NCBI RefSeq assembly: GCF_963360655.1
Contig: NZ_OY725712.1
Span: 992,001 to 1,056,000 of the forward strand
Length of the DNA stretch: 64,000 bases
Source of the DNA: Collinsella aerofaciens
GTDB lineage: Bacteria; Actinomycetota; Coriobacteriia; Coriobacteriales; Coriobacteriaceae
Direction of reading: 5' to 3'
Made by a program: the position numbers and the translations under genes. Each line of letters opens with the position of its first letter. Positions within the stretch are counted from its first letter, which is position 1. Below the pieces are notes generated by a model. It was not told the DNA's origin. It did no database searches and worked only from the letters and a program-made list of their open reading frames with translations. Shown piece by piece: positions 47,326-49,264 of this stretch.

Positions 47326-47497
47326 CGGAAAGCGCGTCCCGTTTTGGAGCTCCGGAATGGGATGCGCTTTCCGTTTGAGGCGCATCAGGGAAACCGCATC
47401 CCGTTTCAGAGCAATATTCCGGGTCGCACTTTCCGTAACCCACCCCATCCGGAAAATGCGACCCGCTATTCGGCCAAAAACCGGGTCGCGGTTTCCC
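47326..47497. repeat. Array of three 48-bp palindromes with a 62-bp period (family F)
   Basis: Units at 47326-47373, 47388-47435 and 47450-47497 are separated by 14-bp spacers and start exactly 62 bp apart. Each folds GGAAAnnGCnnCCCG onto CGGGnnGCnnTTTCC. The sequences differ while pairing is kept. Confidence 0.85.
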
Positions 47498-47530
47498 AAG
47501 CACTCGATGCAACGCTAGCACAAGGAATGT

Positions 47531-48000
47531 CCATTACAGTCGAAATTGTCAGCCCGGGCCCGTCTCGGGCTACGATTGAGGCGCGCCCAGAACGGGCCGC
47601 CGACCGGGCGCCCGCGCACGGCCGAATGTCCCTGCCCCCGAGAGGGCCTGTTGGGTGCTGCCGGCGCGGGACGCGCCGCCCCCGACGGCTGATAGGAAAG
47701 TGCCGGGCAGGCGCCGCGGCTGGTAATGTGAGTGCCGAGGGGGAGGCCATCCGGTCGAACGACTACCATTACAGTCGAAATTGTCAGCCCGGGCCCGTCT
47801 CGGGCTACGATTGAGGCGCGCCCAGAACGGGCCGCCGACCGGGCGCCCGCGCACGGCCGAATGTCCCTGCCCCCGAGAGGGCCTGTTGGGTGCTGCCGGC
47901 GCGGGACGCGCCGCCCCCGACGGCTGATAGGAAAGTGCCGGGCAGGCGCCGCGGCTGGTAATGTGAGTGCCGAGGGGGAGGCCATCCGGTCGAACGACTA
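47531..48000 (+). repeat. Perfect 235-bp tandem duplication of the IS110 noncoding left end (candidate bridge-RNA region)
   Basis: 47531-47765 and 47766-48000 are identical. The unit begins CCATTACAGTCGAAATTGTC and ends GGTCGAACGACTA, and the CC at each junction looks like duplication microhomology. It is GC-rich with several foldable stems, first AGCCCG/CGGGCT near its 5' end, and has no convincing ORF of its own. In IS110-group elements the region before the recombinase gene encodes the bridge RNA, so each unit may hold one. Confidence 0.85.
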
Positions 48001-48016
48001 CCGGAAGGATACCACC

Positions 48017-49150
48017 GTGAAAGCGCCATCGACCAGGCCCGCGGCCGTGCTCGGCCTAGACGTCGGCAAGTCCTCCCACTGGGCCTGCCTGATCGACCGC
48101 GACGGGGAGGTGCTGTCCAGCGCCCCCGTCCGCAACAGGGAGGCCGAGCTCGACGCGCTGTTCGCCTCCGTGCCCGCCGGCACGCTCGTCGTGGTCGACC
48201 AGTTCCGCAACATAGGGTCCCTCGCCGTGAGGCGCGCCCGCGCCGCGGGTCTGGGGGTCGCCCACCTGCCCGGCCTCGCCGCCAGCCGCGCCGCCGGGCT
48301 GTTCGCCGGCGAGGCCAAGACCGACGAGCGCGACGCCGCGGTGATCGCGCGGACCGCCCTGGGTGTGCCGGACTCCCTGTCGGGGGTCCCGGGCCGCGGC
48401 GAGGCCCTCGAGGCCGCGCGCGCCCTCTCGTCGCAGCGCGACCACGTCGTCGCCTGCGCGACCAGGGACAAGAACCGCCTGCGCGCCGTGCTGCTCGAGT
48501 CCTGCCCGGCCCTCGAGGCCGCCGTCGACCTGTCGGACCGCCGGTGGCTGGAGCTGCTCGCCGGGTTCGGCGGGGCGTGGGGGATCGCCCGCTCGGGGGC
48601 CGAGGGGCCGCAGGCCGAGGCCGCCGGGGAGGCCGCGGCCGCCTCGACTGCGCCCCCGCCGGCGCTCATCGAGGCCGAGAACAGGCAGGTCAGGTTCCTG
48701 GCCGCCCGGATATCGGAGGCCCTCGACGAGGCCGGGGCCCTCGAGGCCGAGACGGCGGCGCTGCTCGAGGGCGACGAGACCTACGCGTGCCTGCTCACCG
48801 TGCCCGGCATCGGCCCGAGGACCGCGGCGCAGCTCGCGGTGTCGGTCGACATCGGGAGGTTCCCGGACCACGACCACCTGGCCTCGTACTGCGGCATAGC
48901 CCCGAGGGTGAGGAGCTCCGGAACGTCGGTGAGGTCGGTCAGGGCGTCCAGGCGCGGCGACGCGAGGCTCAAGTCCCTGCTGATCTTCTCGTGCAACAGC
49001 CTGGTGAGGTCCTCGGGGCGCTACGGCGAGTACTACCGGGCCTGCAGGGCGCGGGGCATGGGGCACGGGCGGGCGCTCAAGGCCGTCGCGAGGAAGCGGC
49101 TCAGGGCGATATACGCCGTGATGCGCGACCGGGTGCCCTACCGGGAGTAG
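48017..49150 (+). CDS. IS110-family DEDD recombinase/transposase
   Basis: A 377-residue protein from GTG 48017, eight bases after GGAAGGAT. N-terminal RuvC-like domain: Asp15 (VLGLDVGKSSHWACLIDRDG), Asp61 (LVVVDQFRN), and Asp103/Asp106 (KTDERDAAVIARTALG) complete a DEDD-type set. A coiled-coil middle (~residues 215-245) leads to the Transposase_20 domain (LLTVPGIGPRTAAQLAVSVD, SYCGIAPRVRSSGTSVRS), which carries the serine used for strand exchange. It appears full length and possibly active. GC content is visibly higher than neighbouring genes, suggesting recent arrival. Confidence 0.94.
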   Translation: MKAPSTRPAAVLGLDVGKSSHWACLIDRDGEVLSSAPVRNREAELDALFASVPAGTLVVVDQFRNIGSLAVRRARAAGLGVAHLPGLAASRAAGLFAGEAKTDERDAAVIARTALGVPDSLSGVPGRGEALEAARALSSQRDHVVACATRDKNRLRAVLLESCPALEAAVDLSDRRWLELLAGFGGAWGIARSGAEGPQAEAAGEAAAASTAPPPALIEAENRQVRFLAARISEALDEAGALEAETAALLEGDETYACLLTVPGIGPRTAAQLAVSVDIGRFPDHDHLASYCGIAPRVRSSGTSVRSVRASRRGDARLKSLLIFSCNSLVRSSGRYGEYYRACRARGMGHGRALKAVARKRLRAIYAVMRDRVPYRE

Positions 49151-49264
49151 CCCCGACGGTTGACAAAACTATAGGAACACCCAACTGCCGGCAGAAAAGG
49201 AACGTCTCCAAGTGCCGCCTTCGGCAGCGATGGCAACGCCACAGGTACAAGCGCCACTTTAAGC

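Follow-up and report, generated by a model that had tools for sequence, protein, structure and literature searches.

The window, a 64,000-nt stretch of a Collinsella aerofaciens genome, contains an insertion sequence whose recombinase gene is preceded by two adjacent 235-bp units that match at every letter, as the preliminary description had reported; 2 nt more (CC) are common at the edge (Table 1). The duplicated stretch comprises almost the entire non-coding end and stops just short of the Shine-Dalgarno-like sequence. The gene has a full open reading frame, and a Pfam search matched its product to both domains of the IS110 family, DEDD_Tnp_IS110 and Transposase_20 (PF01548, E = 1.4e-32; PF02371, E = 5.6e-22), each match exceeding the curated cut-off. 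Among solved relatives, IS621 and ISCro4 are closest in sequence, and the named relatives come from Collinsella throughout, with the exception of one distant Streptomyces match. In seven Collinsella recombinases, including this one, a VVVDQ motif places Asp at the expected Glu of DEDD, as judged from spacing. The long non-coding end upstream of the gene (~250 bp per unit, compared with ~30 bp downstream) assigns the element to the IS110 rather than the IS1111 group, and both the family and the group proposed previously are thus borne out.

Table 1. Features of the duplicated IS110-group element and its flanks (window coordinates)
Feature	Position	Strand	Remarks
Left target flank GAATGTCC	47525..47532	+	8/8 pairing with LTG
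Unit 1 (left end LE1 and predicted bridge-RNA region)	47531..47765	+	functional left end
Unit 2 (copy LE2)	47766..48000	+	identical to unit 1; begins at the element's left terminus
Candidate -10 box TACAGT	47535..47540 (LE1); 47770-47775 (unit 2)	+	
LTG GAATGTCCC	47624..47632 (unit 1); 47859-47867 (unit 2)	+	
RTG GTTGGG	47650..47655 (unit 1); 47885-47890 (unit 2)	+	pairs with CCCAAC
LDG ATAGGAA	47692..47698 (unit 1); 47927-47933 (unit 2)	+	matches right end
RDG GTAATGTG	47723..47730 (unit 1); 47958-47965 (unit 2)	+	pairs with the inferred circle junction CACATTAC
Shine-Dalgarno-like GGAAGGA	48003..48009	+	immediately 3' of the duplicated stretch
IS110-family recombinase gene	48017..49150	+	intact; GTG start 48017, stop 49148-49150, 377 aa
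Candidate -35 box TTGACA	49160..49165	+	in the right end; would lie 17 nt upstream of TACAGT in the circle
Left donor ATAGGAACA	49171..49179	+	element's right end
Right target flank CCCAAC	49180..49185	+	6/6 pairing with RTG
Target forms named for the element: GAACGTCCCCAA, GAATGTCCCCAA			

About 29 copies of the element were found in Collinsella at GAAYGTCC/CCAAY sites, mostly in REP-like palindromes such as TAGTCATTGGGGACGTTCTT...AAGAACGTCCCCAATGACTA. Among the approximately 29 left flanks that were read, the ending is GAACGTCC in 28 and GAATGTCC in one, that of the window copy; the right flanks read CCCAAY, with CCTAAC as the single exception (L037). The element borders are confirmed by a sister genome (L144), in which matching flanks enclose the empty site GGAGTGTCCCCAACTGCC. 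Five further left-end places occur in the window genome, each with a single unit; two belong to intact, full-length copies, and the others are internally deleted or interrupted. Unoccupied GAATGTCCCCAA sites are present in 16 of 43 genomes. Imperfect inverted repeats with arms of 24 and 48 nt, likely extragenic palindromes, occupy positions 47326-47497, in the interval that separates the upstream gene from the element.

The preliminary description had drawn attention to three short echoes of the unit in the element's surroundings and suggested that they mark guide loops. All three are present. By position and orientation, the GAATGTCC echo fits a left target guide (LTG) and the ATAGGAA echo a left donor guide (LDG), and each unit also holds a right target guide (RTG) and a right donor guide (RDG), both previously missed. 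The order within each unit is LTG, a small hairpin and RTG, followed by LDG, a hairpin and RDG. The third echo, the 13-nt CCCCGACGG[T/C]TGA (49151-49163 and 47680-47692), exceeds expectation from composition (0/200 shuffles); little of it is kept in subfamilies B and C (see below), which argues against a conserved guide.

Copies with different flanks and unchanged internal segments had been named in advance as evidence against guide function. Such copies do exist in this genome, where other copies combine a GAACGTCC flank with an internal GAATGTCC; the difference amounts to one G-U wobble, and pairing is kept. In the copies compared from other genomes, GAACGTCC serves as guide and flank alike. 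The LTG therefore exists in two forms differing by one base, GAATGTCC in the copies of the window genome and GAACGTCC in those compared elsewhere (window 47624-47632 with L025, L026, L029 and L132). The window copy is also the sole copy at a GAATGTCC target (n = 1, suggestive only).

The donor guides correspond to the ends of the element once these are joined. The target contains a CCCC run, and the left junction has two Cs against three in the right junction; from this we infer a circle junction of GGAACA-C-ATTACAG. One C is common to donor and target at the exchange point, and the identical donor/target dinucleotide of an IS621-like core is absent. Joining the ends in this way would create a candidate promoter, TTGACA-N17-TACAGT; a promoter at the circle junction has been described for IS110 circles (PMC11208160). 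In the integrated form, such a -35 box was found upstream of neither unit.

The target-loop pair was reached in 3 of 5000 dinucleotide shuffles, the donor-loop pair in 2 of 5000 and both together in 0 of 5000, in a fixed-anatomy test for which guide lengths were chosen after inspection. This test replaced a looser one without fixed guides, which was weak for the target (7-16/400) and uninformative for the donor (84/400). Alignment of eight non-coding ends yielded a conserved two-loop consensus with the guides inside the loops, in which 92% of cells are paired and 12 pairs are changed on both sides. Neither value was reached in any of 500 column shuffles, and slid partners lowered both. An Rfam scan returned chance matches only, with no bridge-RNA family reported.

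Comparison of subfamilies showed that guides and targets change together. Subfamilies B (~70% identity) and C (~65%) have different guides and correspondingly different targets: B carries the RTG GGGGGG, has the right flank CCCCCC and sits in C-runs, while C, with the RTG GGGACG, is located before the right flank CGTCCC. An RTG pairs with the flank of its own subfamily at 5.9-6 of 6 positions; when A is crossed with B or C, the figure drops to 2-4 of 6. At the donor side, the LDG of subfamily C (ATAGAGA) and its right end (ATAGAGACA) have changed together, from GGAA to GAGA. The covariation is strong for the RTG; that of the LTG is weak in B and C (~6/8) because their targets are C-rich. A second palindrome type in Collinsella, TAGCCCCGTCCCAAA (L097-L104), is targeted by subfamily C. 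With guides that pair with flanks and joined ends, covary with targets and lie in a conserved fold, the earlier proposal that the unit encodes a bridge RNA is well supported at the sequence level, and the element is, on these predictions, a new IS110-group member with a readable bridge RNA.

The duplication itself is a singleton. Across 43 Collinsella genomes, the junction between the units was found a single time, and every other element copy seen has a single unit, the window copy being one of about thirty. A search of viral contigs for the junction found none, and a tandem-repeat search of 117 loci of relatives revealed no second duplicated non-coding end. Repeats do occur in L114/L140 and L117, but beyond the element's borders; L117 1-267 and L114 709-895 are 159- and 78-bp direct repeats in its flank, with a spacing of 108-109 bp. 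Among open-access papers, no description of tandem bridge-RNA loci was found. Identical tandem repeats are open to misassembly, and the cell might have one unit only, but the assembly of the source genome looks to be of long-read type, and its 1.37-Mb contig crosses several near-identical element copies, several longer perfect repeats and three 16S genes. A collapse or expansion artefact is therefore highly unlikely.

The preliminary description also proposed that this locus would make tandem bridge RNAs, a natural variant worth study. If the twin were functional, two bridge-RNA modules might raise RNA dosage or uncouple RNA supply from the left end, and it speaks for such a role that the duplication covers nearly the whole non-coding end, up to the Shine-Dalgarno sequence, in identical units. 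Nevertheless, the unit identity is accounted for by a recent origin, the arrangement is unique among the 43 genomes, and the inner unit is preceded by no -35 box. Since the guides are identical in both units, a second target is not added. Moreover, a matching left flank is found at the outer left end only: the left flank of unit 2, CGACTACC, pairs with the LTG at 4/8 positions, compared with 8/8 for the outer left end, and excision should therefore use the outer end. Taken together, the single occurrence, the identical guides and the inner left end without a matching target make a functional twin very unlikely. The twin is probably a recent neutral duplication, most likely accidental, with neutrality assumed; the identity of the units and of this genome's intact copies points to a recent event.

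Two routes to such a duplication were weighed. Replication slippage or microhomology-mediated tandem duplication, across 2 nt (CC), is plausible at slightly below even odds. By inspection, sibling copies have internal deletions of 75 and 117 bp between short direct repeats, showing that this GC-rich element does slip; however, the microhomology is very short, and the breakpoint coincides with the element's terminus. The exact start at the left terminus hints at involvement of the recombinase, which could have produced the twin as a by-product by exchanging strands between the left terminus and a CC site inside the element (ACTACC/GGAAGG). This exchange could have involved two sister copies, or it could have been a nested, off-target insertion after which one of the two gene copies was lost by homologous deletion. 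Unit 2 begins at CC/ATTACAG, the junction form of every insertion, and a start at this terminus would be rare for a random duplication. The internal site, however, pairs with the guides at 7/14 positions, a value equalled or bettered by 539 of 1406 element positions, and the reciprocal product or nested intermediate is absent from the 43 genomes searched; we rate this route marginally below slippage. Guide-directed self-insertion at the inner breakpoint was not supported, since that site does not rise above background as a target for the guides.

We therefore favour, with a probability of about 0.82, a bridge-RNA-guided IS110 element in which the left end and bridge-RNA region were duplicated once, recently, leaving a passive inner unit. 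The bridge RNA would be encoded in the 5' non-coding end of this Collinsella insertion sequence and transcribed from the promoter at the circle junction. Its target loop (LTG/RTG) would steer insertion to GAAYGTCC/CCAAY, mostly in REP-like palindromes, and its donor loop (LDG/RDG) would recognise the junction at which the right and left ends meet in the excised circle. For the window copy, the outer left end would stay the usable end; the inner unit would travel with it, and transcription from the circle would run through both units in tandem. That the resulting two-module RNA alters transposition, through dosage or cooperation, with the 1.65-kb twin moving whole via the outer left end, seems quite unlikely.

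The predicted apparatus resembles that of IS621, an IS110-group element of E. coli, in its two-loop bridge RNA in the 5' non-coding end, LTG/RTG and LDG/RDG geometry, REP targets and sigma70-like promoter at the circle junction (PMC11208160, PMC11208158), and the C-terminal recombinase domains align. It differs in its guides and targets, in having one common C where IS621 has a matching dinucleotide at the exchange point, and, in the window copy, in its two bridge-RNA units. ISEc21, an IS110-family element with a seekRNA, likewise has a long non-coding region upstream of tnp and an RNA matching both flanks, but with another host, another target and a single unit (PMC11187229). Insertion specific to extragenic palindromes is shared with ISPpu9, ISPpu10 and ISPa11, whose targets are Pseudomonas REPs; the sections of that account drawn on here describe no duplicated end (PMC1525189).

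These findings contribute an IS110 family with clear borders and multiple copies from an actinobacterium of the human gut; across its three subfamilies, natural changes in the guide segments have gone together with changes in the targets and donor ends. The genome also holds a natural one-base guide variant (GAACGTCC to GAATGTCC) alongside the sole copy at a GAATGTCC site (n = 1). Finally, the twin offers a ready-made natural construct with which any effect of a second bridge-RNA unit could be examined.
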